From contig JAKZAP010000022.1 of assembly GCA_023053575.1 (NCBI GenBank), positions 14,550,518-14,614,517 of the forward strand: 64,000 nucleotides of DNA, given 5' to 3'. Both the position numbers and the translations under genes were made by a program. How positions within the stretch are numbered: the first letter of the stretch is position 1; every line of letters starts with the position of its first letter. The notes under the pieces were generated by a model. That model saw nothing but the letters and a program-made list of their open reading frames with translations. It was not told the DNA's origin and made no database searches. This document shows positions 1,384-57,100 of the stretch, in pieces. The stretch comes from Branchinecta lynchi (taxonomy: Eukaryota > Arthropoda > Branchiopoda > Anostraca > Branchinectidae).

Positions 1384-2028
1384 TCCAGTTTTTTTTTTCA
1401 CGTCCTAGCCTTGGACAACAAACTTGGCCAAATTTGCATGACTGGTCTTCTGACCAATAAGCATCTCGGAAGCTAGAGGAGATACGATACACTTATAAAG
1501 TGTAGAAGAATCTCGTAACGAGAACGGATTTAAATACTACTGAAGTAAAATGAATTACTATTTTAAGTACGGCGTGTCCTTTAAGACATCAGTGAACTAA
1601 ACAGCATTGTCCTGGGATCAGGGGCGGTTCGAAGAGCTTGGGCAAGGGGGGGGGGTGAGGACTTCAAAATATACGACTGGCTAAAAACACAGCACCGGCA
1701 GGCTCAAGAAATATTTACGTTACAAGTTCTAAAACGTTACTGGAAATGCCATTGTAGTAATAAAGTAATAAACAAATAATAACAGGAATTAGAGGATGCC
1801 GTTCATACCAAAGTTCACTGGAGAGAAGACAAGCCTCGATACCAGTTTGTGACATGTCTCTACTCAAGACAAACTAAAGTCAGCGCCGCAGGCGAAATGT
1901 TTTCAATCAGAGCAAAATTCAAATAATCCTTCACAGCTTTTTTTAATGTAGCCTAGACCACAAATCTCAAGCTTAAAACCGCGCATAAATGATGCACACT
2001 TCAAGTAAATAGAGATAGGGTAGGACTA

Positions 2029-2701
2029 CAGTAGTGTAATAGCTATAAGAAGAAACGTCATTTTCCTATCCCTGCGCCTCCGACCATAGCCCCGGCTGGG
2101 CACACGCGGGATCCGGCCGCCTCCGTCCGAGCGCTCGGTCGCGAATCCGCCAAACACGGCAAACGCATCTTCCGGGCGGGACCGGCGATCTCCGGGCGAG
2201 CACGCCGCACGCGGAATCCGGCAGCCTCCGTCCGAGCGCGCGGTGGTCCGGATTTCCGCCGCGTTAACCGCACGTGATTGGCTGTGAGGAGTGCTTTAAG
2301 GAAACTCCCATGATGAGTGCTTTAAGTTTTGTTGTTTTGTTTTTTTTATGATAAAATAGAAGTGATAAAAGGATGCTTTGTGGATCGATTAAATTTAGCT
2401 ACAGTACTGCAATTCGTCGATGGAATAACAAGCTTGTTGACTCCACTTTGCAACTCCGAAGAGTGTTGACAGATATTGTGCAAGGGTGTGGGATCAGATT
2501 ACATTTGCGAATTCCATGATGCTCCTGAGACGTTAATGGGTGTAGGCAGTTTCGTATGACGCAACTTAACAGATGAGGGAAGGGTGGGAAAAGAGTAAAG
2601 TACACCCCGTCAGGGTGGAACAACCTCAGTCAGCAATCAAGAATGAATTAAGACAGTTATACTTTTCGTTTTTGCGAGGCTACAGTTTCAGCAAACCAAT
2701 G
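2029..2701. repeat. Left long inverted-repeat arm with CpG-rich, CCAAT and E-box sequence
   Basis: Pairs with 3617-4290. Two internal near-copies of a 45-bp CpG-rich block (GCCTCCGTCCGAGCGC at both) lie at about 2110 and 2230. Next to it is CACGTGATTGGCT, an E-box beside an inverted CCAAT box, a promoter-like arrangement that the opposite arm shares. Short ORFs here are mirrored in the other arm and look non-coding. The position corresponding to the start codon of the ORF at 3655 reads TTT instead of ATG here. Confidence 0.85.
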
Positions 2702-2945
2702 CAATGTCTGCTCAATCAAACCAACCCTTGACAACTGTGTTCCATGTTTACAAACATGTTGCCCAAATCACAGTAAGATCCAGCCATCCTGTATCGACTG
2801 TCTAACCACGAAATGTCAAAAGCATCCCGTGTCAACCATGGCTGTGTGTTATTTTTGCCACAGTTACGCCTTTTGCTCCGAGGACCGACAAAGAGATATA
2901 GAGTATATGATGAAGAAACTACGGTTTTATTTTACAAAAGAATGA
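2652..2945 (+). CDS. Cysteine-rich ORF, possible zinc-binding protein, of the long-TIR element
   Basis: Open on the plus strand from a TAA at 2649-2651 to TGA at 2943-2945, 97 codons. It has about 14 Cys and several His in pairs: CNVC, CVPC, TCCPNH, CIDC, CQKH, CYFCH and AFC. Such spacing is what zinc-binding fingers (treble-clef or RING/B-box type) show. There is no ATG near the start, so translation would need an upstream exon or a different start. It runs toward the ORF at 3059-3655. No named family was recognised. Confidence 0.4.
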   Translation, partial: DSYTFRFCEATVSANQCNVCSIKPTLDNCVPCLQTCCPNHSKIQPSCIDCLTTKCQKHPVSTMAVCYFCHSYAFCSEDRQRDIEYMMKKLRFYFTKE

Positions 2946-3058
2946 ACTAGTTACATTTGTGTAAAACCACCATATCTGCAGGGAAAGTCCTGAACAGGCG
3001 GAGGAGGAATATGAGAAGCAGGAGCAGTTTTATGAAACAAAAACTGGCCTTGCCTTCC

Positions 3059-3655
3059 TTATTCCAAACGAAAAAGTTTCCTGATCATCGGCTCTTTTGA
3101 TGGAGTTTTTTCATGGTCCATCAGAACAGCCGTGATCGCCTGTTCAATTTTAAAGTAGACCTGGTGGAAGGAATGTTCACCGAAAAATGACATTAAATCG
3201 GTGAACATTCCTGCCTCACTTTCGTTCGAAAACACAAAGCCAGTATTTTTCATCACGGTCTGAACGTTATACATCATTTTTTTACACTGATGAAACATGG
3301 AAGTCATCGCACACTTCGTTTGCTGATCACCGCCCGGACAGTTTTTAATTTTCAAAGGAGTAGGACACTGGATCCCTAACCGTGATCGGATCCTGCCCCA
3401 CCTGGTGAATATAAGCATGTTCAAGAATGAGTCCTGTATGTCCACATAATCCACTTCCATGTTGACAAACACGGCACTTCGCATTGTGTTTATATGATAT
3501 TCACCATGAGGCAGGAACACGGCCTCGTATAGTGGTGCATGGGACCCGGCCCTCACTCCTCGTTTGAACCGGCGTTCCTCTTCCCTTCTCCAGAATAACT
3601 GTTGAGAATTCGGGTCCATTGGTTTGCTGAAACTGTAGCCTCGCAAAAACGACAT
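3059..3655 (-). CDS. Unrecognised 198-residue ORF of the long-TIR element
   Basis: An uninterrupted ORF, starting with ATG at 3653-3655 within the inverted-repeat arm (MSFLRGYSF) and ending at 3059. The protein is mixed hydrophilic and hydrophobic, with a basic N-terminal patch (WRREEERRFKRG), several Cys (KNCPGGDQQTKC, FHQCKK), and no signal peptide or membrane segment that I can see. I do not recognise a family. The start in a promoter-like arm and the absence of stops in 198 codons support real coding. AATAAA lies on this strand at 2926-2931, below the stop. It could be a fragment of a larger gene lost by internal deletion. Confidence 0.5.
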   Translation of the reverse strand: MSFLRGYSFSKPMDPNSQQLFWRREEERRFKRGVRAGSHAPLYEAVFLPHGEYHINTMRSAVFVNMEVDYVDIQDSFLNMLIFTRWGRIRSRLGIQCPTPLKIKNCPGGDQQTKCAMTSMFHQCKKMMYNVQTVMKNTGFVFSNESEAGMFTDLMSFFGEHSFHQVYFKIEQAITAVLMDHEKTPSKEPMIRKLFRLE

Positions 3656-4290
3656 GTATAACTGTCTTCATTCATTCTTGATTGCTGACTGCGGTTGTTC
3701 CACCCTGACGGGGTTTACTTTACTCTTTTCCCACCCTTCCCTCATCTGTTAAGTTGCGTCATACGAAACTGCCTACACCCATTAACGTCTCCGGAGCATC
3801 ATGGAATTCCCAAATGTAATCTGATCCCACACCCTTGCACAATATCTGTCAACACTCTTCGGAGTTGCAAAGTGGAGTCAACAAGCTTGTTATTCCATCG
3901 ACGAATTGCAGTACTGTAGCTAAATTTAATCAATCCACAAAGCATCCTTTTATCACTTCTGTTTTATCATGAAAAAAAAAACAACAACAAAACTTAAAGC
4001 ACTCATCATGGGAGTTTCCTTAAAGCACTCCTCACAGCCAATCACGTGCGGTTAACGCGGCGGAAATCTGGATCACCGCGCGCTCGGACGGAGGCTGCCG
4101 GATTCCGCGTGCGGCGTGCTCGCCCGGAGATCGCCGGTCCCGCCCGTAAGATGCGTTTGCCGTGTTTGGCGGATTCGCGACCGAGCGCTCGGACGGAGGC
4201 GGCCGGATCCCGCGTCTGCCCAGCCGGGGCTATGGTCGGAGGGGCAGGGATAGGAAAATGACGTTTCTTCTTGTAGCTATTACACTACTG
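3617..4290. repeat. Right long inverted-repeat arm, includes start of the 198-codon ORF
   Basis: Inverted copy of 2029-2701 with only scattered substitutions. It carries CCAATCACGTGCGG at about 4039-4052 (CCAAT box joined to an E-box). The ORF 3059-3655 starts in the inner end of this arm, so its first 13 or so codons are repeat-encoded. Confidence 0.85.
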
Positions 4291-6228
4291 ACTACGAAAG
4301 AGCCGTAGGCAAAATTTGGTAAATCGGTCTGTATTCGTCAATATTCGACTACTATCCCACACAAACTCTTGCTTTTAACGTGGCTCAAATCCCAAGCAGC
4401 CGCTTTTAGCGTATGTAGGCTACCCACGACAAATTTAAACTCAGCGCCACAGGCTATTTTTTATATCCGATCTTTTTCTGGCATTTCTAGCTTTTAAGGT
4501 GACTGGAAGATGAAATCCTAACATCTAGGCTACTATGAAAGACGGCGCAGGTAAACTTTTGCGAAACATTTTAAAGGCTGCCTACGATATCGCATATCTG
4601 TCGTTGCCCCGATAACTCGCAAACGGAGTGGGACATTTTCACGGAAGTTGGTACGTGGTAGTGCTTCCGCTTTGAATTTAGAATACGAAAAAAATAGTTC
4701 AATCATCATGCCCGTCATACGGTGCTTACAAAGCCTGTTTATGTGCAAACCTTACTCATCAAGCCATTTAAAAACAAAAATAGCTTGGTTTCTTTTTAAG
4801 ATAAGGAAGTTTTTGCACAAGACCAAATAGGATAATGTTGAAACTTCGCGCCGCAGGCGTAAGTTTCGGAAATCAGCCTGTTTTCAGCGCCACAAGAGTG
4901 AAAATCACGATTTGTTAATGGCATTTATATCAATCTGACAAGTTTGAAACATACGACTGTCATTCTAACAAGCTCAAAACACACGATATTTCGTAACGTA
5001 ATGACTTATAGAAAATCTCTATACAACCGTACAACCAGAAATAGGTCATTTGCTGTCGAAGTCCACCTAACTGCCTCATATGTCAAGGTCAATACTTACG
5101 ACTGTCTCTAACATACGACCAGAAAGTATCTTCGTAAAATACGACAAGAAACAGGTCATTTTCAGGGAAAATTTGCGGTTGATGTCATTCTGGGAAGCTC
5201 CATACGACTGTAGTTGCGTTTTTGATTGCCGTTCCTGATCACACTCCTTTTTATTTCTCGTTTTCGATCACCTTCCGAGTTCGCAGTTTGCTTAATTGTC
5301 GTTTTTGCCGAAACGGAGACCGTGTCAGTACCCGGTTCTACAACACCTGCGACGGCAAACTGTGACGCAGACGCAGTTCCCGGTACGAGTTCGTCTGTCA
5401 TGAATAAATTAACCAACACAAATTGAAAGTTATGGACAGTGTGTTTGGAAATGGATGATTACAACTTGTATGTTTTGACTACAAGAATGGCATTTTCACT
5501 GTCAAATGTGACTACCTTTTACTGACTTATTTAGACGATTTTATGAATGAGGTGCCGGGATGCTTATTTTCCGTTTTTATTCACCTGCGTCATGAAACGG
5601 CGAAGCCGTCAGGCGAAACTGAGTGTAAAAACGAAAATTAAGCTGCAGCGGCGAACTCACAGGAGAACTTACACAGGCAATCAAAAACGCAACTTGTGAT
5701 TCTGACAAACCGAGAACACAAAACTGCGAATCTGACAAGCTTAAAACATACTACTAAAATCTCTATGAAACAAACGACTAGAAACAGGTCATTTGAAGGC
5801 GAAGTTCACGATTAGCTATAAACTGCTTTTTCTGCCTTTATCTGGCAAGGTCAAAACTTACGACTGTGTATAATTTACGACTAGAAAATCCCTGCGTAAA
5901 GTACGACAAGAAACAGGTCTTTTCAGGCGAAATTCCGAGTTGATGTCATTCTGGCAAGCTCAAATACGACCTTCATTCTGGAAAAAAATCACACAACTGT
6001 GAATCTGAAAACATACAAATAGAAATGTCTTCGTACCCATACGACTAAAATATATGATTTGTGTGTGAAATACATGTTTGGTAACAACTATGCCTGTATG
6101 TCATTCTGAAAAGCTCAAAACATACGACTGTCATACAGACAAGCTGAAACATACGACAGAGAGTAGATTGTCTGGAGCATGGGGGGTGAGTCCCCGCCCC
6201 GCCCCCCCCCCCCTTCGAACCGCCCCTG
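4291..6228. repeat. Right body of the hAT-like element: degenerate short repeats
   Basis: Repeated blocks in the same orientation include ACATACGACTGTCATTCT, CAAGCTCAAAACATACGA, GACTAGAAACAGGTCATTT and GCGCCGCAGGC. They recur at roughly 100-200 bp intervals. They resemble arrays of transposase-binding sites near hAT ends. No coding sequence was recognised. Confidence 0.55.
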
Positions 6229-21006: not shown

Positions 21007-24000
21007 CTAAAAACAATACGAATGAAATGGTTTGGGTATCTCTGACCCTTACGGGTATAATAATAATAATATAATATACATTTGCAAATTGAATGGCAGG
21101 CCGTTAAGCCTCTACCAAATTCTTAATTTGCATTTATTCTAAATTTGCACAAGGAGAAAATGTCACTTGAATAATACTCATCAACTTCCTTCTTGAATGT
21201 CAGTAGGTTTGTGGAGATCGGGTATTATACCCTAGGTACCACCGTTCTTGCAATCCGTATACCCCTTCATACGAGACGATCGTAGCGATTATAATTTAAA
21301 GTTTAACTGAAAAGCCGACTCATTACTGTATCATTTGACTGAACACACTGGATTATTTGGATTGGGTTAAGGGATTTTTTTTATTTTTGTGCTCCATTAG
21401 TGAAGTTTAGAATTCTCTACGGCCGTCGCCACAACGCAAAGTTCTACTCTGACGCGGAAAATCTGAATCTCAACACAAACGTGGCTTTGGTGAACGTGAA
21501 GTTGGTGAACACTGTGGCTCAAACATATATGTCACTTTTGCCTGTCTCCAAATCGATTTCATTTTCTTCACTGGAACACAAACTACCATTTTAATTTTAA
21601 TTTTCGAAAACTGTTTTCGTCAAGCATACAACGCAGGTGTAGGCGCATAGAAGTACTACAGATCAGACAGAGAAAGACCACTATATGAAAATCGACAAGT
21701 AGTGAACAGCGGAACAACAAAGTAACGCATTTTCATCGAACCTTGAAGCGTATTTTAGGGTATAAGTGATGGGTAACTTAACTACACTGTAAAAAGTTTC
21801 TCGTATAAAGATTAAAGTTAACTGCAGTATTTGCTACTCGGATTGGTCTTATCTCGATTTGGTATTAATCTTATCTGCGTAGAGATAAGAATAATCTGAG
21901 TAGGAGATTCTGCAGTTAACTTTAATCTTTATACGGAGAATTTTTCGTACAGTGTATGGTCCTATCTCATCACTTTTCGGAGGCTACCGAGGATTGAGGC
22001 ATTTTCGCCGACAAAATAAATATATATATATACATAAAATATAATATATATATAAATATATAGTAATTGTCGACTTTGGGACTTTGGGACTGAACTATCA
22101 GACTTTGGGACTGAACTATCAGCATTTGGTTATTGAAGAGCTGGGCGCACAAAGGTGACAAGTCGCTTTTTGCTAGTTTCGAGCTAATCGGGTTTAAAGT
22201 TTGGATACTCATTATATCAAAAGCTAGTTATCACCTTTGTCGACTCATCTTTAGAAGGGAGTGATCTGGTGAAATATGAAATCTGGAATCGGACAGTCAG
22301 AAAGAGTGCACAAATTTGTGCTAGATGGTCCTCTTAACTCAATTTGTCAAAAAAAAAGGCGTTATCACTTTTATGCGGTCAGCTCTTCAATTATTCTGCA
22401 CCTGTAAACTATTCGAAAAATTTCTCCCACCCTTTCTTCATTGTTTGATGGTAGTCTCGAAGAAAAGTTTATTCGGAATTTGAAATCTTTAAAGGACCCC
22501 TCTTGCTTGTTCTGCCTTTTATAATGTACTTAGCTCCCATATGGAATTATAAGCTTCTAAAATCCCCACCTTTCTCCACTGTTTCGTTTCGTAACTACAA
22601 ATTTTTAGCGCTTTTTCGGCCTTGCCGAGTTTTCCCGTCACTTTTTGCCGGAATCTTGAACGTCCGCTGACAACTCTTTCATACATAAGGATGTGATAAT
22701 CTTCTGTTTGTGACTTCTTTTACTTGCTTAGTTTTCGCACTTTTTAACCAAGGCATGTTAAGTTTTCAAATGTTTTGCGCCCAGCCGCCGCGTCGGAGAG
22801 CAGGAAGGCTGGTTATAGTCGACAAGCGCTAACAAGAGAATCGCTAGTTTCAAGTGGAAAGTAATGGTATTTTCGAAAACGTTTATTCTGATCCCTTTCA
22901 TAGGGAAAAGATCATTTCTAGTAAGAGTTGTGCTTTAAGGTTTTAAACTTTTACCACAAAAACCGACCAATAGGATGCGACTCCGTTTTAACGGTAAAGT
23001 TTGACGCCTTCAAGGTCTCCTTTCTGATCGAACTTTGGTCCAAAACTGTGACAGAATAACCAAAGAGAGCGTCATAATAATGTTTCCAACAAATCACAGG
23101 CTCACAATAGTCAACAAACGCTAATAATTCAGTCCATAAGTAGGAAATTCTACACCTCTGGAAGTCAAATTCTTCGACCGTCTTTTCTCCGTTTCCGTCG
23201 GGTAGGCTGCAAATGCTGCAATTTTTCTATACCACTTAGTACAGGTCGGAACTTGAGATGGGCGAATCCAAATCTGGATTCGGATTCGAATCCACGATTC
23301 GTATCTTTGGCCGGATTCGAATCTTGTGCTTGTCAGAGTTGTCAGGCTGGATTCCGATTCGAATCCACGATTCGTGTCTTTGGCCGGATTCGAATCTTGT
23401 GCTTGTCTGAGTTGTCAGGCTGGATTCGGATTCGAATCCACGATTCGTGTCTTTGGCCGGATTCGAATCTTGTGCTTGTCAGAGTTGTCAGGCTGGATTC
23501 GGATTCGAATCCACGATTCGTGTCTTTGGCCGGATTAGAATCTTGTGCTTGTCAGAGTTGTCAGGCTGGATTCGGATTCGAATCCACGATTCGTGTCTTT
23601 GGCCGGATTCGAATCTTGTGCTTGTCTGAGTTGTCAGGCTGGATTCGGATTCGAATCCACGATTCGTGTCTTTGGCCGGATTAGAATCTTGTGCTTGTTA
23701 GAGTTGTCAGGCTGGATTCGGATTCGAATCCACGATTCGTGTCTTTGGCCGGATTCGAATCTTGTGCTTGTCAGAGTTGTCAGGCTGGATTCGGATTCCA
23801 ATCCACGATTCGTGTCTTTGGCCGGATTCGAATCTTGTGCTTGTCAGAGTTGTCAGGCTGGATTCGGATTCGAATCCACGATTCGTGTCTTTGGCCGGAT
23901 TAGAATCTTGTGCTTGTCAGAGTTGTCAGGCTGGATTCGGATTCGAATCCACGATTCGTGTCTTTGGCCGGATTCGAATCTTGTGCTTGTCAGTGTTGTC

Positions 24001-27000
24001 AGGCTGGATTCGGGTTCGAATCCACGATTCGTGTCTTTGGCCGGATTAGAATCTTGTGCTTGTCAGAGTTGTCAGGCTGGATTCGGATTCGAATCCACGA
24101 TTCGTGTCTTTGGCCGGATTCGAATCTTGTGCTTGTCAGAGTTGTCAGGCTGGATTCGGATTCGAATCCACGATTCGTATCTTTGGCCGGATTCGAATCT
24201 TGTGCTTGTCAGAGTTGTCAGGCTGGATTCCGATTCGAATCCACGATTCGTGTCTTTGGCCGGATTCGAATCTTGTGCTTGTCTGAGTTGTCAGGCTGGA
24301 TTCGGATTCGAATCCACGATTCGTGTCTTTGGCCGGATTCGAATCTTGTGCTTGTCAGAGTTGTCAGGCTGGATTCCGATTCGAATCCACGATTCGTGTC
24401 TTTGGCCGGATTCGAATCTTGTGCTTGTCTGAGTTGTCAGGCTGGATTCGGATTCGAATCCACGATTCGTGTCTTTGGCCGGATTCGAATCTTGTGCTTG
24501 TCAGAGTTGTCAGGCTGGATTCGGATTCGAATCCACGATTCGTGTCTTTGGCCGGATTCGAATCTTGTGCTTGTCAGAGTTGTCAGGCTGGATTCGGATT
24601 CGAATCCACGATTCGTGTCTTTGGCCGGATTCGAATCTTGTGCTTATCAGAGTTGTCAGGCTGGATTCGGATTCGGACTAGGATTCCAAACCCTCAATCT
24701 TACGAATCCGCTCAAATTTCTAGTCTACATCTTTCCTGCAGTTTCCGTTTTTCCAATTTTTACACAGTGGGCTTAGATAGTCCAACTTTTTGGTCTCCCC
24801 CACCAACCATCTACACTACACAGTTATCTCTCACGGTAGCTGATTCCTTAGATATCAATCCTTTATATCGCCTCTGATTTTTAAACCATAACCTATGTAC
24901 ATGATTTGATTTTTGTTAAGGTCGGAATCTGATTCGTACCTCGCCCTGAATTCGGATTCTCATGATTCGATTCTAGAATCTCTGGTTGGAACGTGTGGGC
25001 ACGGTGTGGTAGCTATTTCTAATAGCTGGTAAGTAGTTGGATTGGAATACACTATATGGAATTGTCAGCTTGTTGTTACTCCAGGATCTACTTGTGGTAG
25101 AACGCAGGGGCTTCACGACTGGGGGGGGGGAGGGAGGGGACGCCCCCCAAAGCTGTCGGCCAGTCGGTGAAAATTACCGAGTCGGCGCGAAGCGCCGCGA
25201 TTTTTCGTAAAAACTGTTGATTTTTTGCATGAAAACAGTCGTTTTCCCTGAAAACTAGTCGATTTTCCGTCAAAATAGTCGTTTTTCCTGAAAATCAGTC
25301 GAATTTTTCAAAAATGTCATTTTATATTGTTGAAAACAGTCGTTTTTTCTGCAGAAACAGTCGGTAAAAACTAACAGCCAGGCGGTAAGTGCCTCGCCCC
25401 CCCCCCCCCCAAACATTTTGGCTAGTAACGCCTCTGGTAGAACGGCGTGGTAAGACGTTAAAACACCGGTAAAAGTGTGTGATGTTTAGTTATTAAAGTT
25501 GATCATTATTACTTTTTCATTATTAATTATTAGACACAAATTATATATTACTGTAGGATTGATTTAAAGTATTTACCGTATGCTTATATAATACTGCTTG
25601 AGCCCAAGCTGACTTAGAAACATATATAATGTCTAAAAACGGGAAGTCAGCTACGTTGTTTGTCAGCGATGTTTCGGCCCTTCTTGGCAACGGTCGTCCT
25701 CAGGCTGTTGCTGGACACGAAGAAATGAACCTGCACAGCCTGACAAGGACTCTTGCGAGTAGGGGCGTCACGTATGCCCCCCCCCCCCCTCCTATGTGGT
25801 CGGTAAAAAAGAAACGAGTCGGCGCATCATGTGCTTTGTCTTTTTCTTTTAAGCCATCACACCCCACTAGTTCTCATGTAGTGCAGTAGGTAAATAAATG
25901 CAATGATTCACTCAGAGCGTGTTCCGCCCTACTTATCGTAGTTACTACGCATGACATCACGAATTCTGGCTTTTTGCCGTCAAGTCTGGAACGATTTTTC
26001 CATTTTTCCAGCAGGATATCATGCCACGGGCGAACCCGACCAATTGCGTTACAGAGATGCGTAGTTACTACGCTCCCGAGCATGGTAAGCAGATAGTAAC
26101 TATTAGTTACTATTTCGAGAAGGTTGGAACGGTCGGCGTAGTAACTTTTTGTGAGGATGGAACGGAAATAGTAACTAATAGTAAATATTTTTAGAAGGGT
26201 GGAACACGCTCTCATTGTAAGAAAAGAAGAGCCTTACCACTGACTATCAAGAACTTAGCTCAGCTTAACCTTGGTGATTTGAGTTTCATCACACTTGTAC
26301 AGTAGAGGTATGCTTATGTGAACGTCTGCTAACAGTAAACGGTCACCGACGAAAAAATAAAACCCAAACCAGGCATTTTTTACCATGAATACTTGTAATA
26401 ACCACTCACGCTTTTGTCACTTTTTGAATATTTTGCTAATTCACGGCTGAAAGTGACTCAACTGACACCTGAGCCTCGTTTTTGTTGCCATAGTGCTGCC
26501 GCATCGCTGCTGCAGCACTTCTTTGCTTTTGCACAATATGCGTTTTTGGATTCACTTTCTTCTAGGTTGAAGCGGCAGCGCTGCAGCACCTTACAGGGAA
26601 GCACGGACTTGGTCGGTAAGCAAGTCCGTGATTCTCGAGAAGCGCTGCCGTCTTCCTCGGAAGCACTGCAGTGCAATAACGGATGTAGAATCAGTCCGGA
26701 ATCGGCCGAGAAGTGGACCTGCAGCATGCAACAAAAACGAGGCTCTGGTTTAATTTTTGTAATTTGAACAGTTTGCCACGAGGAACGCACCTTCAACGTA
26801 GAAGATGGCGGTCCCAGCCTCCAGATGCCTTCAAAAGAAGAACCTTTTCAGAATCAAAGAAAGTTGACTGAATTTGTACTTCAAGTTTGTGCCAGGATAA
26901 CCCTGAAATAGTTGTCTGTTAGCTGATATCAAGTTTATTATTTTTCTTTTCCATTTTACTTTTTTATACGAAAGTAACAAAGCCAAGGTAGAGGATCAGT

Positions 27001-39000: not shown

Positions 39001-42000
39001 TCGCTACCAGAGGAATTGTCTGTTCTCCACAGAAAACTGTCCAAAACGGCGTACGCGCGTCTGCCGCCCTCTCATGGGCTTATTCGTCTGTTTGACTCTT
39101 GAGCAGATTTTGTTCGTATGTGTTGTATTTTCCCTAACTATATCTTCTTATAATCTTTTGTATTCCATTGTTTCCGTCTTGTACGATTTGTGGGTTAGAA
39201 ATAAATTAATTAATTAAAAGACAGAATAAGCGAAAGGGTTCTTCTGAAGAGCAACGACACTCTGCAAGCCCAGAGTAAGTAAAGTAAGTAAAGTATTTAT
39301 TACCCGTATTTTTCCCTTAGAACAAAACGGAGTTCAGAAGAAAATAGAGAAAAAGAAGAGAAATTTGAGGCACAAAACAGATACAGACACATGACATTTT
39401 ACATAACAGTTACGCAATCACAAACTATAAAAGTGTTTAAGCCAGGGATGGTTCCATTTCGCCTGAAAATTTGAAATTACCCGATTCACTGCGATACTGG
39501 CGTGCGATAATGTAGTCATAGACTAATTATATATCGTTTATTAACAAAAATAGCAGAAATAGCTAGCAAAGGTAAGTCAACCTAATACTTTCAGCGGGAT
39601 ATAAAATGGCCGATGACAAATAATACCAGATAAACCCGACTAAGAACTATTAAACGAACAAACAAAGTAAGCACAAACGAGATTACATATCTTTCAGCTG
39701 CATCCGCTGGATTCGCGCAGAAGTACCTCTATTTACTTTAGGGACTGACGCCACGCAAGGCCAAAGAGAAAAGCTACAAACATCCCTGGCGATCAAGTGG
39801 GGACACTATCATGTGACTATCACTATCAGCTGCTACCCTTAACTACCACGGTCCACAAGATTTAACTGATGTAATTCTGTTACGAAGTCTCGGCCAGAAC
39901 GACTTAAATCTTCAAAGAAGCCCTTGGCTCTCCGTAATTAATCTAGCAACTCCAGTTACCACATTGCATATCTACAGCAAAGCAGGGACTGAAAATGCAA
40001 ACATCAATATACCCAGTAGGGGAACGTATGCTAATAGTGAACGGTCGCCGAAGAAAAAACTAAAACCAGAACCAGGCATTTTTTACTATAAATACTTGTA
40101 ATAACCATTCACACTTTTGTCACTTTTTGAATATCTTGCTCATTCATGACTGATTCGGACCGCCATGTTCTCCTTCGATGGAGAAGATGGCGGTCCATAC
40201 CTGCAGTTGCCTCCAAAAGAGGAAGGAGCTTTTTGATTTAGGTGAACGTCTGCTAAAAGTGAACGATCGCCGAAGAAAAAACTAAAACCCGAACCAGGCA
40301 TTTTTTACTATATATACTTATAATAACCATTCACACTTTTGTCACTTTTTGAATATCTTGCTCATTCGTGCAGTCATTCATCTCAACAAACGAGTTAACA
40401 GATCTTTCAGCTGCATCCGCTGGATTCGCGCAGAAGTGCCTCCAATTACTTTAGGGACTGACGCCACGCAAGGCCAAAGAGAAAAGCTACAAACATCCCT
40501 GGTGATCAAGTGGGGACATTATCAGTATCAGCTGCTACCCTTGACTACCACGGTCCTCAAGATTTCAAAGACTGATGTAATTCTGTTACGAAGTCTCGGC
40601 CAGAACGAATTAAATCTCTAAAGACGCCCTTGGCTCTCCGTAGTTAATCTAGCAAACTCCAGTTACCACATTGCATATCTACAGCAAAGCAGGGACTGAA
40701 AATGCAAACATCAATATACCTAGTAGGTGAACGTCTGCTAACAGTGACCGATCGCCGAAGAAAAAACTAAAGCCCAAACCAGGCATTTTTTACTATAACT
40801 ATTTTGCTGATTCATGGTTGATAGTGATTCTACTGACACCTGGTTTTCTTTCGTAATCTGAAAAGTTTGCCACGAGGAATGCACTTTCATGGAGAAGATG
40901 GCGGACCGAACCTACAGTTGCCTCCAAAAGAGGAAGGAGCTTTTTGATTTAGGTGAACGTCTGCTAACAACTAAAACCCAAACCAGTTTTTTTTTTTTTT
41001 TTTAATATAAATACTTGTAATAACCATTCACGCTTTTGTCACTTTTTGAATATTTTGCTAATTCATGACTGATGTGACTCTGCCGACACCTGCTGTTCTT
41101 TTCATAATCTGAAAAGTTTATCTACGAGGAATGCACCTTCGATGGAGAAGATGGCGGTCCGAACCTACAGATGCCTCCAAAAGAGGAAGGAGCTTTTGAT
41201 AAATTCAAAATCAAAGAAAGTTAATAGAATTTCTACTTCAAGTTTGTGGCAGGATAGCCCTGAAATAGTTGGCTGTTAGCTGACATTAAATTTGTTATTT
41301 TTCTTTTCCACCTTTCTTAAGGAGGGGGAAAAGACCTGAAGCATAAAGGACATAATGATCACAGAAAGTAGAATAAAGTTTGGCCAGCGCACGTCTGTTA
41401 TACGTGCGCTGGCCATTATCACTGATCATTAATGGGGAAGGGAAGCTTCCTTACCATTATCTGCTTGGCAAGTTCAAGCTCACCACCTTGGACGCGAGAA
41501 GAAACCTTCTATGCCTTAATTCGGCACCAGGACCCTGTCTGTTCCCAGATTGCGTCCCATTCTCCCCGAACTCTACACACCCATCCGCAACAGACCACAG
41601 CGCGACAAGCCTCAGAAAGTACCCAAATTAAACCCAGTCCCCACAAAACATGAAAGCATGAAATGCATGAAAGGTACCGAAGGAGTAACACAACTATTGT
41701 AAGAATATCTATTGGAGGTTTTTTTTGTAGTGGGGGGGGGGGGGGCTGGGATTAGAGGTTCTACAGGCATCCAAACATTTCCCTTACCTGACGGCGAGGA
41801 CGGTTCGCTGTTTCCCTGCACAAATCCAACTGGATTTGGTCCCAAATCCAACGAAATATCCCAAAATGGATCCACGGTCGTAGAGACTCCATTACACGCC
41901 TGGCAGACTACGTCCGACTGAAGTCCCCCAGTGAAAATTTGGTCAATGATACAGCGACAAGTATTCGGGCTTTCTTCATTGGGGACTCCAAGGTTATCGC

Positions 42001-45000
42001 CCTTGCAGTGACGATGCAGGACATCTAGCGTCGCTATGAAGAACTCGTGGGCGTCTTGTTGCTCATAACCGGCTAGATGTCGGGCGTGTGTCCAGATCAT
42101 ATGAAGTAGCTTGTGGAGGGAAAGAGGAGCTTTCTTGCCTGTGTAAAACTGGAATAAGAAACGTAAATTAATTTGTCAGGTCATAGACAGACAGTACGCT
42201 ACCTTCACAGCTGGCGTGCAGATTCAAGGAAGCCATGTAATGTTTCTTTACAAACATTCCAAGATCTCTTTATCTTTTCCTAATTAAAAATCAATACACG
42301 ACTTCTGCCCCGCCCCTCGCCTAATGTTGTCGGCCCTAAATACAAAAACTCAGTCGGCAAAATCTCAGCGCGGAGCATCGCGATTTTCTGCGATTCTTTT
42401 ATTCGGTTATGCAAAGAACCTTAATGCTTTACCGGCATTCCAAGAACTCTCCATCTTTTTCTAATTAAAAGGCGATCGATGCACGACTTCTGCCCCGCCC
42501 CTCGACTAATATTTTCGGCCACTCACTACAGAACTGAGTTGGTAAAATCTCTGCGCGAAGTGCCGCGTTTTTCTGCGATTCTTCTATTCGGTTATACAAA
42601 GAAGACGAAAATACTGACATGGTATCTACCGAAATCGACCTCGGTCGGTAACTGCAGCGATTTTACCGACTGAAACAATGGACGATTAAAAAAGTCGGTA
42701 TAAATGACAGCCCGTCGTACAGTACCTACATCCACACCCCCCCCCCCCCCCCCCCCCAACAAAAAAAAAATAACGCCTCTGCCCTAGAAGCTATGCCAGG
42801 TATCGTGCCCATTCATTATTTTTCTCAGCTCTCGTCGTGTCCTCTTCAGTCACCAAATTCACGTCTTTCCTATTACCGTTCACATTTTTTTGTTATTGCA
42901 AAATGTGTTGTTCTGGCCTAACGGTAAAGACTGAGTTATGTGGAACCAAATTATGTCAGACGACCCAGGGTTTTCTTCTGAAAGCCATAGCCTCTATCCA
43001 TAGCCTCTATCGAGCAATTAAGCAATAGTTACAGAAATAGTGTATTTTTTTAACTATGTATTGCCAAGTTGAAATTGTATCTTGTGTGCTGTTCTTTGTT
43101 CCACTTTTCGTTATTTCTTTTTTTTTACTCCTTCAGTGACATTCTATGTGAAGATGGGTAATAAACGTATTCATTCATTACCTTAAATCGCACTTCCAGC
43201 GAGATAAGGTGGTGTTAACCTCCTGTAGAGTCTCTCGCTGGTTGGCGGCTTGATTGTCAGATCGTTGTTGTAACATCGGCTCACTGGCACTCCAGTGTAG
43301 CCGGCATTGATTGGTTGATAAATCTTGTTGTCACATCGGCTCACTGGAATCCCAGTCCAGCCGACATTCAGCATTTCGCCAGTCCTCGTCCACGCCTTTC
43401 TTGAAGCCATCCAGGGTAGCAGCGTTGATAGTTTTTTCGGAAAGGCTGTTCCAAAGTGGAACACTCCGTACAGAGAAAAAACTGTGCCGCTCGCGTCGTT
43501 TACAGCTGGTCAGTTGGAGCTTCTTGGAATGGCCTCTCGTCGACTTTGATTGGGAGCTCTCGAATACCCCAGGAATAATGTCGGAGTCTAACAGCTTTTT
43601 TACCATCAGGACGTCGCCGCGTTTACGTCGATACGAGAGGCTGGGAAGCTTCAGTACCCTCAACCGTTCGTGGTATTCTAGGGCTTTTAATTGTGGTGAC
43701 ATCTTAGTGGCTCTTCTTTGCACTCCCTCTAGGGCTTTGGCATCCATTTTGTGGTGGGGTGATGCAACAATCATGCCGTACTCAAGGTGGGGTCTCACAA
43801 GCGCAGTATAAAGCTTCTTAATGATCACAGGCTTCCTAGAGGTGATGGTCCTTTTGACAAGTCCAAGTGCTCTGTTTCCTTTAGCAACTTGGTGGCGAGT
43901 GTGGGGATGAAATTTAAACTGGTTGTCAATTGTGACACCCAGGTCCCTTTCCTCCTCCACACTTTCTAGGTCAATGTGGTTTTTGGATCCATTCGACATG
44001 GTGTACGTATGTTGAGGGTTCTTAGGTCCAAGGTGAAGTACTTTACACTTCGCAGCATTGAACTCGAAAAGCCACAGAGATGACCAGTTGGAAAGAGCAT
44101 CAAGGTCAGCTTGCAGTTCAGATTTTTGTTTGTTGTTGGCAACAGGACCGAAGAGTTTTGAGTCATCAGCAAAGAGTGTAAGGGTGTTTTGTACAACAAA
44201 ACATAGGCTTGACAAAGCTAGTGCAAAGTAACTCAGACAGTCCAAATCAACAAACTGACTTCCCCAACACAATTTTTAGCCAAGTAAACTGAAACGGGCA
44301 TGCTCTGGTGAGCTGCTTATTTCGCACGATAAATGGATACCTCGACCTTGACTTTTTGAAAAGCCCGCCAAAGAATCACGCTAAAGTCATGAGACCGACC
44401 GTGAGCTCTCTAAGTGTGTTACTGCGAGATGCTGTTTGAGTATTAAAGTGTAACTGAAAAGGGGTGAGATAGGACAATCTAGTTATCCATCTATTCACTT
44501 AAAGACATTCAAAAGATGTCCTGCGTGCTTTAAAGGGAGTAACTAAGAGGGGTTTGATTCAGTCTGAAGTTAAACCTACCTCTTGGAATAGCCTCGAAAC
44601 TTCGCAGACTAAGCAGCTTCCTGGCTGCTCCGCTAGTTGGCAGATGTGTCGATCCGACAAAAAATAGTCCCTAAGTAGCGGCGTGTGTATCAAGGTCTGC
44701 ACTATACAGTTCATGAAGCACGTATTGCCTAGATTGATCAGACCTCGTAGACCTAGAAATAAATTATGCTATTATGAATGTATGAATGTATTCCCAAAAA
44801 AAGCCCCATGGGCCATGGTGGTTCCACAAGAGAAAGCTATTGGAATAACACAAAAACAAAACATTGAAAGAGGATAGGTTAAACTACACGTCGCAGTGGA
44901 TATATATATATATTCTAATCAGAGTCGTCGCAAGGGGGAGGGGGCTGGTGGTGCAGCCCCCCCCCCCCTCCCCCAACTCTTTGAGATTCGGTAAAATTTT

Positions 45001-51000: not shown

Positions 51001-54000
51001 AAGTGCCATATAGCGATCGCAATTTCTGTCCGTCCGTCGGTCCGGGTTTTGCTAGTTCGGGCACTTCCGCAGAAGCTAGGACGATGAAACTTGGCAGGCA
51101 GTATCAGGGACCCCAAATGATTAAGTTGGAAATAGTCACTTCCCCGATCTAAGCATCGTGGGGGGAGTGGAGGGAGGGGGAACCCTGGATCTTGAGGTAT
51201 TTATAACTCTTAAACGCGTGATCGGATCTTAACGAAACTTGAACGCAAAAACTCCACGCACAATCCGGACCGGATCCGGTGACTTTGGGGGGAGCCGGAG
51301 AGGGGAACCGGAAATCTTGGGAAACGCTTAGAGTGGAGTGATCAGGACAAAACTTGGTGGGAAGAGCAAGCACAAGTCTTAGATACATCATTGACACGAC
51401 CGGACCGGATTCGGGCACTATGAGGGGAGTTTGGGGGGGGGGGGGCGGATTTCTGATGATCCGTGAGTTCGGTACTTCCAGATGTACTAGGACGGTGCAA
51501 CTGGGCTGTCATACCAGGGACTTGAACAAACCGACTAGGCGTTTACATGATCCGATCATCGTGGGGAGGTGTGGAGGGAGGAGGAATCCGGAATCTTGAG
51601 GTATCTATAACTCTTGAACGGGGTATCGGACCTTAATGAAACTTGGTATTTGGAAAGACCGCGTGTCTCACACGATCCACATTGGACCGGATCAGGTGAC
51701 TTCGGGGGGAGCTGGGGGGGGGGGAGGACCGTCAACTTTGTGACATGGTCAAAAACCAAACGAATGGGCCGACTGGGATGCAAGTTGGACAGTGCCGAGT
51801 TTATGCTGCCTATTTTTTATTTGGCGCCCGGACCGGATCCGGCAACGGTATAAGAGGAGGATCAGGCGGAAACCGGAAATTTGCAGATAAGTTCCAATTC
51901 GAATGAAATAGAAAACCGTGATTTTCGGGGTTTTTTTTATTGATCAGCTAATTATCACTCTAGGATGATGTGCGAGGGATAAATATAAATTCGGATATTT
52001 CCGAAAAAAAAACCCGAAAATCTCGGTTTTCTATTTCTTTCGTAATGAATAGTCAGCTTGGCTTCAAACCTTATATTTGTTCCAATTCGAGTCAAGCTTG
52101 AAGAAGGAGAAGAGAAGATGTCTGAGATGCAAAGTTTATGTGTCCTAGTCGTGTTCGACCACAGTGGGAGGATTGGGAGGGGGGGATTTTGTAGCTGGCG
52201 TAGGGATCGAACGGATGGAGTGATTTGAATCAAACTTGGAAACAATGGAGACCATGTGTCCTAGATGACATGTTTTAGGGTCCGGGCCGGATATGTACAA
52301 GGTGAGGGGGGGGGAAGAAAAAAGATTCGATCTGAGTGAAACTCTATAGCTGGTACGAGGAGCTGCCTTAGGAGGCAGGAGGTGCCTTTCGTCCACCCGT
52401 ATTTTGTTTACTGTGCTTCAGTGTGGGCTTCTACTTTTCCTTCTATTCTTAAACCTCTTCAGATTCTTCAAAATAAAGCCCTTAGGATACTTTTCAGTAT
52501 TGACAATAGATCTTCAGTTAAGCACCTTTATGCAACTGTCGGGAATTTTCAGTATTTGTCAGCTCAGAGATATGTCTATTTCATTTATTTTGTTTTTTAT
52601 ATCAACGTGGATTATTACCATTAAGTTATGCAGGGTTATTTTCAATTAACTCTCAGTTCCACAATTATCCCACTTCCCTCAGATTCGGATTTTTCAGTTG
52701 TGAAATTAGGCCTACTTCACGATCTAGTTTTGGTCTTCGCCATGCTGGCCCGAAAATCTGGAACTCCATTCCAGCTGATTTGAAACAGTGTCTTGACCCA
52801 TCAAAATTTAAAAAACTGCTTCGAAGGCATATTATTGATTCTTGCAAGCAATAAAGTGTATGTACGTATCTTTAGTTGTGGTGTTTCGAAGGATTTCTAT
52901 TATTTATTTTGTTTAGGCTAGGTTAAGACGGTTATTTTTCTTTTATTGGAGTTAACTTACGCGCTTAAGTATGTCGTGAGGCATTTGCGTTGTTTGTTAG
53001 AAGTTGGTTAAATTTGTTATAAATAAACTACCTACCTACCTACCTACCTACGAGGAGCTGCCTTAGATAATCTGTATATGTGGCTGAACCAGATCTTGCC
53101 CTGGTTTTGAGGGCGACGCGTACCGGCAATAGTACGGCACTCTTAGGAATCAAACGAGTGCGGTGAAACATTTGCCCTAGATTATCCGAGGAAATGCCGG
53201 AAATGCTCATGCTCGGGTAAAATTAGATACCTTATTTCTAGCTCCAGTCCTAGGAGGGTTGAAGGGGGGATTGTGTGACATTCTCATCTACTTTCTTGTA
53301 CCACCTTTCTCATAAAAAGTGCCATGTGAGCTCGTAGCTCTTGTTCTGAAAAATCAATCTTTTTTTTTCAAAAATGTCATTTTCGTTGCTGAAAGCAGTC
53401 GTTTTTTCTGCAATCTACCAGTACCGTTGCGATTTTTTTTCGGCTCGACGCCGAAGCTCGACGATGTGTTTTTTTTAACGCCTGGCGTGACGAATATCGC
53501 CAGGCGATGTCGAAATTCACTCTCTTTGTGGATTGGGTCTTAAAACCTAATTTCGTGAGAACATAGCAGCTTAAATCTACAAATAGGGTAGGCTACAGCG
53601 CAATTTGTTTCCACCAACGTCATGCCGTGCCAGCACACGACATCATTGGCCAGTTTTTTCAATCCACAACTCGTTTTACTGTTATAAGCCAAGATTTGTC
53701 GCCCCCATTGTTTATTTTATTTAAAGAACAACATGTTTAATTAGTATCGATTATGTTTACTGTTTTGATTCATGCCATTTCCTTTTTATTCTGTACTACC
53801 CCCACTGTAATTAAAAGCAGGCTATGAATAACAAGAGCTACGAGCTCATATGGCACTTGTTAAGAGTAGGTGGTTCAGGAAAGTAGACGAGAATGTCACA
53901 AAATCCCCCCTTTTAACCCCCCTAGGATTGGACCCTCGAAATAAGGTATCTAATTTCACGCGAGCCTGAGCATTTCGGCATTGCCTCGTATAATCTAGGG

Positions 54001-54164
54001 CAAATGTTTCACTATACTAGTTTGATTCCTAGGAGAGCCGTACTATTGCCGGTACGCGCCTCGCACTCAAACTTCCGTACCAGGGCCGTCTCGGGTTCAA
54101 CTACTTACACAGATTATCTAAACCATCTTTCACTCGGGGCGAAGCTTTTTCGGGAAACTCAGGT

Positions 54165-54195
<31 letters not shown>

Positions 54196-57100
54196 ACCCC
54201 CCCTACGTCTTTAAATCCGGTCAGGAACCTAAAACATGTCATCTAGGACACATGATGATGATGATGAAATTTTATTTACGCACTTAAGAAGAGGGAAATA
54301 GTGCAGTATTGACAAAGAAAAGGAAAAAAAAAATACACTGAGCTTTCAATAATGTAGTAAATGCACGAGATCATAAAATGAATATCTAAAAAAAAAAGAA
54401 AAGAAAAGGGACTAATCGGGTCTAAAAAATCTTCTTCCTAGATGGGAGTGCGGAGAAATGGCCAAGGGCAGAGGCGTGAAGGTCTTGGGCAATCGAAGAT
54501 AACTTTGCACAAGGGTCAGAGGGCAAAAAAGTTGAAGCTATACGGGAATTCCTGTAACGTCGAGGAAGGTCTCTATTCTTTCCAAGTTTGATTCAAATCA
54601 CTCCATCCGTTTGACACCAACCCGAGCTACAAATTTCCGCAGCCCCCCCCCCCCCCCCCCCCCAATCCTCCCACTGTGGCCAAAAACGACTAGGACACAT
54701 ACACTTCACATCTTTGACATCTTCTCTTCTCGTCCTTCAACCTTGACTCAAATTTGAATATATCATATAACATATTAGTGTCTTTTTCTGTGTCTTTATG
54801 TCTCTTATTTATTTTCTTTTATTTACTCCACTTTTTCGAAATGGCGGGTTACAAATAAATTACTTACTTACCTATATCTGCGAATTTACGATTTTCGCCT
54901 GACCCTCCTCCTTTACCGTTGCCGGATCCGGTCCGGATTCCAAATAGCAAACTAGGCAGCACAAACTCGGTACTGTCCAACTTGCATCGTTTTGGTTTTT
55001 GGCCATGTCAAAAGTTTACGGTCCCCCCCCCCTCCCCCCCCCCCCCCCTCCTCAAGCTACCCCAGCCAATGCCGCATGTGGTTTGGAGACATGTTTTGCA
55101 TACCTAGCTCATTAGTTCTTATCACTCGAATCGGACCACCCGTTCGCAAACTCCGCAAGTCAGTAATTTCTGGATTCCCCTTCCCTTAACTCCTCCCAAA
55201 CTGGTCGGATCCAGAAACAGACATTTTCCTAGGGCATTGTGTCAGGTCTTTAATACTTTTTAGTCGGGGTCACTAATATTCCTGCCTAGTTTCATCGTCC
55301 TTAACACATCGTCCTATCATAACTCGCGATCACCGGAATTCCCGGAAATCCCTCCGACTCCCCTTAAAGAGCCCCGATATGATGCGGTTCCGTCAAGAAT
55401 CTATTTACGGCTTATGCTTGCTCTTCCCACCAAATTCCATCCCGATCCCTCGGCGCTAGGCGTTTCACGAATATTCCGGTGTCCCCCGTCAGCCCCCCCC
55501 CCAAAAAAAAGTATTGAATCCGGTCCTGGCTTGACATGAAACTTCTGAGACGACACCTCTTTCCACTTGCCAAGTTTCATTGAAATCCGATCGCCCGTTT
55601 GACAGTTATGAATGTCACAAAATTCCGGATTCCCCATCCCTCCACTCCTCCCAGAATGATCGAATCATGTAAACGACTATTGTCAACTCAGTCTGTTCGA
55701 GTCCTTGATGTGCCAGCCCAGTTACATCGTCCTAGTACACCAGGAAGTACCGAAATCACGGATAATCGTAAATCCGGACCCCCCCCCCCCCAACTCCCCC
55801 ATAGTGCTCGAATCCAATCCGGTTATGTCAATGATATATCTAGGACCTGTGCTTGCTCTTCCCACCAACTTTCATCCTGATCCCTCCACTCTAACCATTT
55901 CCCAAGATTTCCGGTTCCCCTCTCCAACTCCCCCCAAAGCCTCCGGATCCGGTCTGGATTTTATGTGGGTCGCCTGAGACATGATCTCTTTCCAAATACC
56001 AAGTTCCATTAAGATCCGATCACCCGTTCGAGAGTTATAAATAAATAAAGATTCCGGATTCCCCTCCCTCTCCTCCCCCCACCATGATCGGATCATGCAA
56101 ACGACTATTGTCATGTCAGTTTCTTCAAGTCCCTGATATGCCAGCCCAGTTGCATCGTTCTAGTACATCAGGAAGTACCGAACTCACGGATATTCAGAAA
56201 TCCGGACCCCCCCCCCCTCCCAACTCCCCCCATAGTGCCCGAATCCAGTCCGGTTATGTCAATGATGTATCTAGGACTTGTGCTTGCTCTTCCCACCAAG
56301 TTCCATCCTGATCCCTCCACTCTAAGCGTTTCCCAAGATTTCCGGTTCCCCTTTCCAACTCCCCCCCAAAGTCACCGGATCCGGTCCGGATTTTATGTGG
56401 ATCGTCTGAAACACGAGGTCTTTCCAAATACCTAGTTTCATTAAGATCGGATCACCCGTTCAAGAGTAATAAATACCTCAAGATTCCGGATTCTCCCTCC
56501 CTCCACTCCTCCCACGAGGCTCGGATCGGGGAAGTGACTATTTCCAATTTAATCGTTTTTGGTCCCTGATATGCCTGCCAAGTTTCATAGTCCTAGCTTA
56601 TTTGGAAGTGCCCGAACTAGCAAAACCCGGACCGACAGACCGACCAACCGACCGACGGACGGACAGAAACTGCAATCGCTATATGGCACTTGGCCGAAGG
56701 GCAAGTGCCATAAAAACGCAGAAATACTCTTTCAAACAAATTTGGAGCTAAGATAATGTGTTGTCCTCAGATGACCGATCTGCCCACCTCCCCTCTCGTC
56801 TTCCGTGCGTCGGTCCGAGAGGGATACTGGCAGTCAGTTTTCTTCAAATTCCGCTAATTCTGCCCAATTTTTAAGTAGTTTCATCCCATCATTTATTTCT
56901 GGTCATTTCTTGTAAGTGTATTATTTAATTTGTTTCATGTCTGTGTATTTTGAAAATTTGTATTCCTCGTCTAACTTTTAGCAATTTGGATTAAACTTGA
57001 TTGATTGATTGAAAAACAACGTTTGAAACTAAACGTTGAAACAGTACTTACCTACAGTCGACAGGCTTGAAATTTTTTTCCTCTTAGGATTCTGCTTCAG

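Follow-up and report, generated by a model that had tools for sequence, protein, structure and literature searches.

A small element with doubled Polinton/Maverick polB ends and its mirror-image relatives in the genome of Branchinecta lynchi

The element and its surroundings

The window analysed here is a stretch of 64,000 nucleotides of the Branchinecta lynchi genome (contig JAKZAP010000022.1, positions 14,550,518 to 14,614,517), and the subject of this report is a 2.26-kb element spanning positions 2030-4289 of that stretch (Table 1). Two near-identical inverted arms (2029-2701 against 3617-4290, with 656 of 674 aligned columns identical) are separated by a unique loop of 915 bp, and two reading frames of 198 and 97 codons point at each other between them, as a first-pass annotation of the same DNA had described. 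For 673-bp arms, an identity of 97.3% lies far beyond chance. Mavericks end in (AGT)2//(ACT)2 and are flanked by 6-bp duplications, according to the accessible text of PMC8097293. Correspondingly, the element begins and ends with AGTAGTG...CACTACT, which carries the AG/(AGT)n motif of Polinton/Maverick terminal inverted repeats, and is flanked by a target-site duplication of the expected 6 bp, GACTAC. The first-pass annotation had placed the limits one base further out, at 2029 and 4290, with a 4-bp duplication ACTA; this was wrong on both counts. Chapaev, Sola, Ginger and Academ, superfamilies with 4-bp duplications, were dropped as candidates once the 6-bp duplication and relatives carrying a type B DNA polymerase (polB) had emerged.

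Table 1. Features of the window element (positions in the window) and the larger mirror-image elements read in the same genome (C-numbers denote its contigs or copies)
Feature	Position	Strand	Remarks
Left target-site duplication, 6 bp, GACTAC	2024..2029	.	same 6-mer at 4290-4295, directly outside the AGTAG...CTACT ends
Left arm	2030..2701	+	terminal inverted repeat to ~2503, then polB-end sequence ~2506-2701 reaching the start of the Cys-rich gene
Pair of 37-nt direct repeats, CpG-rich and subterminal, 105 bp apart	2103..2244	+	similar units in the terminal repeats of relatives
Cys-rich gene remnant, 97 codons, ATG-less start	2652..2942	+	120-aa frame in relatives; no Pfam match
198-codon ORF	3059..3655	-	13 residues from the arm joined to the C-terminal portion of the relatives' 357-aa gene; N-terminal portion lost
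Snap-back junction, CATT	3617..3620	.	common to the parental gene and the arm sequence
Right arm	3617..4289	-	inverted copy of the left (polB) end
Right target-site duplication, 6 bp, GACTAC	4290..4295	.	perfect match to 2024-2029
Six mirror elements	C2, C4, C7, C12, C21:22433930-22446835, C15:3390517-3402507
Seventh element	C15:22207672-22221488		composite of two mirror structures

Each arm holds CpG-rich blocks and a CACGTG E-box beside ATTGG, the inverted CCAAT box, in agreement with the earlier description. The hexamer CACGTG occurs only twice in the 64 kb, once per arm, compared with about ten occurrences expected from base composition alone. The stretch CACGTGATTGG of the arm recurs in several relatives, and the promoter-like block is part of the parental terminal repeat; any role as a promoter is putative.

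Several other features were seen in the window. The short dispersed motif GCGCCRCAGGC flanks the element on both sides (1876-1897, 4437-4458 and 4841-4862). Further along lies a tandem array of a 73-bp repeat (23274-24675, 19 copies, 97%) that is open in more than one frame, and a region of strong GC skew at 51102-56571 contains several inverted repeats, roughly 120-280 bp long, that overlap one another, together with a 428-bp tandem repeat. A 187-aa frame on the minus strand (41612-42175) resembles an exon from a ubiquitin hydrolase of the USP22 type and probably belongs to a host gene. Rfam returned nothing at the gathering threshold over the whole window.

Polinton/Maverick relatives and the two convergent frames

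The arms had initially been assigned to no family, and a genome-wide search with them had been proposed. In the 576-Mb assembly (216 contigs) that search recovered larger relatives: one arm matches at least 115 places (best 40 of 61 candidates), many of them as facing pairs 10-15 kb apart, and these lead to Polintons/Mavericks with polB, integrase and ATPase genes. A COX1-like fragment in the nuclear DNA of this assembly reads best with AAA as Lys and AGR as Ser, in line with the invertebrate mitochondrial code, and on this ground a fish or sea star host, suggested by chromosome number and CpG content, was discarded. The gene set between facing arms was pooled over several copies. The relative on C16, an ordinary Polinton, carries a 1241-aa ORF with a DNA_pol_B_2 domain (E 2.6e-21), for which no PDB sequence match was found. 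The integrase of a C15 relative matches Chromo at E 3.6e-8, with a score over the cut-off, and rve at E 4.7e-7 (30.4 bits, below the cut-off of 32.6), and a relative's integrase also matches a solved integrase chain in the PDB (E 5.3e-8). The ATPase reaches 23.2 bits with Pox_A32 in one relative (cut-off 22.8) and 21.9 bits, below the cut-off, in another. The labels capsid, penton and protease used for the relatives below denote candidates by position and sequence motif, which family, PDB and structure comparisons did not confirm. The 422-aa candidate for a double-jelly-roll major capsid protein, placed by position, has no match in Pfam, PHROG or the PDB; its homologues among 7615 candidates are nine proteins, all from Artemia franciscana (best identity 59%), and the structure model of the Artemia homologue (pLDDT 32) is too poor for fold comparison. 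Likewise, a 186-aa frame without a Pfam, PHROG or PDB match resembles a cysteine protease of the adenain type by a sequence motif and is a candidate for that gene. Among viral contigs, no relative of either the capsid or the integrase was confirmed. At the capsid end of the C16 copy, an intact 348-aa ORF (L021:1588-2631) was observed, with no Pfam match. In the C1 copy, integrase matches lie near C1:15696314, some 16 kb away from its polB end. The genes of the relatives agree with the Polinton gene set as named in the accessible text of PMC4028283.

The window copy contains no frame for a type B DNA polymerase, no retroviral-type integrase, no FtsK/A32-like ATPase and neither a capsid nor a protease candidate. 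Since its relatives do have polB, it is a derivative rather than a complete member of the group.

The two convergent frames can be understood from the same relatives. Their polB end has, next to its terminal repeat, a Cys-rich frame of 120 aa and a gene of 357 aa that point towards each other. Convergent genes between long terminal repeats had been cited as a feature of some viruses and large transposons, and this background holds here, the larger relatives being Polintons/Mavericks. In the window, the first in-frame ATG of the 97-codon frame is codon 63. A probable start of the parental gene (ATG AAT ...) is found a little further upstream within the arm; the left arm reads ATG AAT TAA there, so that a stop follows two codons after the start, and the frame has also acquired a Cys-to-Phe change. 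Where the two arms differ by ATG versus TTT, a difference that is real, the first-pass annotation supposed that one arm had lost its start; three aligned relatives identify the left arm as the altered one. The ATG of the 198-codon frame is accidental and out of frame, spanning the Thr-Cys codons (ACA TGT) of the Cys-rich gene. Downstream of it, the frame aligns with residues 136-354 of the 357-aa product at 39% identity, with one stop within the match. The 357-aa gene has no Pfam or PHROG match and none among 889 protein candidates at E <= 0.001, and the structure model of the window ORF (pLDDT 42) is too poor for fold comparison.

Both window frames are thus broken Polinton genes, and the pair is therefore no evidence for two promoters driving two designed ORFs. 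The proposal that the element is a novel kind of small mobile unit, with both of its convergent genes working, draws on the presence of two open frames between long repeats; given that both are truncated or damaged versions of genes of larger Polintons, and that no other copy was found among the best 40 of 61 candidates, we consider it highly improbable.

Mirror-image structure in the window and across the genome

Arm positions 34-475 also occur at the capsid ends of both relatives read there (C16 and C15), and positions 478-673 occur only beside polB-end sequence among the matches listed. The window arms are thus about 200 bp longer than the terminal repeat seen in relatives, whose natural length of ~475 is taken from C16 and C15; in the ordinary C16 copy the terminal repeats measure ~435 bp. 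At the inner edge of the right arm, three parental copies (C20, C1 and C10) continue into the gene, and the window switches to arm sequence (parent C20, GGGTCCATTCAAAT; arm, TTGCATTGGTTTG; window, GGGTCCATTGGTTTG). The two sequences share 4 bp (CATT) at this point with the C20 copy and 3 bp (CAT) when C1 or C10 is taken as the parent, a microhomology that could be due to chance. The polB end is accordingly present twice, inverted around a loop, which is the structure of a snap-back molecule. Because the arms outrun the natural repeat and meet the gene at a microhomology junction, the structure very probably reflects a copying back of the polB end in inverted form and not a mere loss of the middle. 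The earlier suggestion of an internally deleted relative of a larger element was right about the larger relatives, which are Polintons; the loss is probably not a plain deletion, one end having been duplicated in inverted orientation.

A plain internal deletion would require a parent whose terminal repeats were already ~672 bp long, with no inverted duplication. Terminal-repeat length does vary among Polinton families, and no capsid end belonging to the window's own subfamily was recovered. Set against this are the end of the arm match at position 475 at both capsid ends read, the confinement of positions 478-673 to the polB end among the matches listed together with the ~435-bp repeats of C16, the need for the arm to end exactly at the deletion point, and the abundance of mirror-image elements in the same genome. 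We regard a plain deletion as unlikely, and leave it that much weight because the repeat length comes from two relatives only. No second copy with the window junction was found among the best 40 of 61 candidates, so that any spread of the small form itself is conjectural.

Besides the ordinary C16 copy, piecewise reading covered seven elements whose terminal repeats are related (Table 1). Six of them, 11-13.5 kb in length, are mirror images with arms of 4.8-6.7 kb that are 99.6-100% identical, and the element in the window belongs to the same class as a small member. The 357-aa gene, whole or partial, lies in both arms of five of the six, and the element at C15:3390517 has no recognisable gene. 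polB itself is found only in C2, where it is cut short at the centre of a palindrome that matches the polB half of C16 at 98.97% identity over 5325 bp. More broadly, 10 of 35 polymerase matches form 5 inward pairs (35 of 42 rows; best 37 of 1386 candidates). The seventh element is a single insertion (duplication CTTATT) containing two mirror structures in a row, one polB-end and one capsid-half, with an internal terminus at ~22213678. At C14:3988160-3988380, two Polinton polB ends with repeat sequences that differ by side are joined terminus to terminus (...ATCTACT|AGTAGAT...), a head-to-head junction such as a dimer or circle might leave.

A second family of palindromes, ~10 kb long, represents the capsid half. 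In C10:9175407-9185887, of which the left arm and centre were read, arms of 3.0 kb carry Cys-rich, protease-like and capsid-like frames, and a unique centre of ~4.5 kb holds penton-like, integrase and ATPase frames; no polB-sized frame was found in the part read. At least 16 loci of this type are inverted pairs (two with one arm partial) versus at least 4 single-arm loci (best 40 of 17346 candidates). These four adjoin polB matches, one of them partial, and their second arm may have been missed by the search. Among the capsid matches themselves, 39 of 99 fall into 20 inverted pairs (best 99 of 257 candidates), 18 of them outward at no more than 10.3 kb, one spanning 24 kb and one inward between neighbours. 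Eleven further capsid-half copies have the same junction as the C10 palindrome over 112-127 bp, making 12 of the 12 loci checked, which implies one event followed by amplification to at least 12 loci. At this junction, too, there are two short and almost identical sequences, CGTAAGAAAATGG and CGTAAGAAAAAGG.

A perfect 6-bp duplication abuts the AGTAG ends at 16 of the 19 loci examined, namely the window, the seven mirror elements, C16 and 7 of 10 capsid-half palindromes; C7 and C16 have an extra 3-bp repeat unit at one end. Such duplications at proper ends indicate that the palindromes already existed as linear DNA with two sound termini when they were inserted. An origin after insertion, by break-induced or foldback repair of the chromosome, is very unlikely: rearrangements of this kind do occur in genomes and use microhomology, yet both ends of the window element are exact termini with a perfect duplication, as at the other loci, and the capsid-half junction common to all 12 loci means that the palindrome there predates insertion.

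The three capsid-half palindromes without a duplication are C10:9175407, C10:9524350 and C9:19786703. Together with C18:16645252 they have exchanged flanks, the left CTCTCT of one being the right flank of another, and further flanks among these four near-identical copies are reverse complements, which suggests inversion or translocation by recombination between copies through the palindromes, or else assembly switches. Long palindromes with arms more than 99.9% identical do trouble assemblers, and the flanks of these three match those of other copies; that the window element itself is an assembly artefact of foldback reads is nonetheless extremely improbable, considering that its arms differ at 18 columns with changes on both sides and that the duplication stands at both ends of 16 of 19 loci. 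By the majority of three relatives, 10 of the 18 columns changed in the right arm, 6 in the left, and 2 are undecided.

The arms of a palindrome are also far more alike than copies of it. C7 and C12 have a common palindrome centre, and over 6761 columns the two copies show 132 mismatches and 82 gap columns (96.8%); the arms within C7 differ at 2 of 6695 columns, and over 6563 columns the arms within C12 show 5 mismatches and a single gap. Arms that were merely inherited would drift as copies do, and must instead be homogenised in replication cycles or formed anew. Panhandle or hairpin replication would homogenise them in this way. In comparison, the window arms, at 97.3% with changes on both sides, look like those of a copy that has been resident in the chromosome for longer.

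A model of formation and comparison with known systems

The window element is very probably what remains of a Polinton/Maverick (adintovirus-like) parent: a decayed, non-autonomous form that arose by snap-back of the polB end. In this model, a parent Polinton would have replicated as linear DNA from its ends, perhaps as a protein-primed linear episome. Synthesis within the 357-aa gene near the polB end would then have switched, during end-primed strand displacement and at a microhomology of 3-4 bases, to the opposite strand of the same end. Copying back out to the terminus would have produced a snap-back molecule whose ends are alike and enclose a loop of 915 bp. A Polinton integrase may have inserted this molecule by its two proper termini, creating the 6-bp duplication; the element would later have decayed in place. 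With no polymerase or integrase of its own, it would have depended on helpers for both, and any past mobilisation of the small form would have been in trans. The window copy is dead.

A broader and more tentative idea, which we hold as a conjecture and find slightly less probable than its opposite, is that Polintons in this animal lineage are a split system of polB-half and capsid-half mirror subgenomes. Both kinds would replicate, with their arms made alike at every cycle, and would themselves act as inserting mobile elements; in at least one family, among the candidates scored, they would be commoner than the ordinary genome. The window element would then be a miniature of such subgenomes, and the palindromes would be a fossil record of snap-back products and direct evidence of end-primed linear replication.

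On its own, the window element is of modest significance, being dead and with no second copy found. The class to which it belongs matters more, as extrachromosomal, linear, end-primed replication of Polintons is usually argued from their genes and snap-back derivatives are the expected by-products of such replication. With clean duplications, amplification from a single junction and arms far more alike than copies, the model of replication can be tested on genome sequence. Hairpin RNA that feeds silencing could furthermore come from mirror-image insertions, which could be hot spots of recombination as well.

No report of palindromic Polintons was found in a literature survey covering titles and the beginnings of abstracts, with most subscription journals outside its scope, and the string "palindrom" is absent from the accessible portions of PMC8097293 and PMC6431247. 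The element resembles Polintons/Mavericks in its 6-bp duplication, its AGT-repeat ends and its relatives with polB, chromo/rve integrase, A32-like ATPase and capsid-region genes; it differs in its size of 2.26 kb, in the lack of polymerase, integrase, ATPase and capsid genes and in having the polB end twice in inverted orientation. It shares with MITEs and foldback transposons a small size, the lack of enzymes of its own and long terminal inverted repeats, but is derived from a Polinton, with no cut-and-paste transposase family involved. Adenovirus genomes with an inverted left-end duplication and a hairpin derivative of the yeast plasmid pGKL1 provide another parallel: in both, a linear DNA that replicates from protein-capped ends has produced derivatives with an inverted duplication; unlike the elements described here, these are neither inserted by an integrase nor amplified as chromosomal insertions. 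In populations of AAV, the accessible text of PMC8235507 describes 5' (rep) and 3' (capsid) snapback genomes, either symmetric or asymmetric with a loop. These are closely similar products, in which a subgenome consists of one half of the virus folded back on itself, with the difference that the AAV forms are packaged single-stranded parvovirus genomes, whereas the element in the window is a Polinton derivative fixed in a chromosome.
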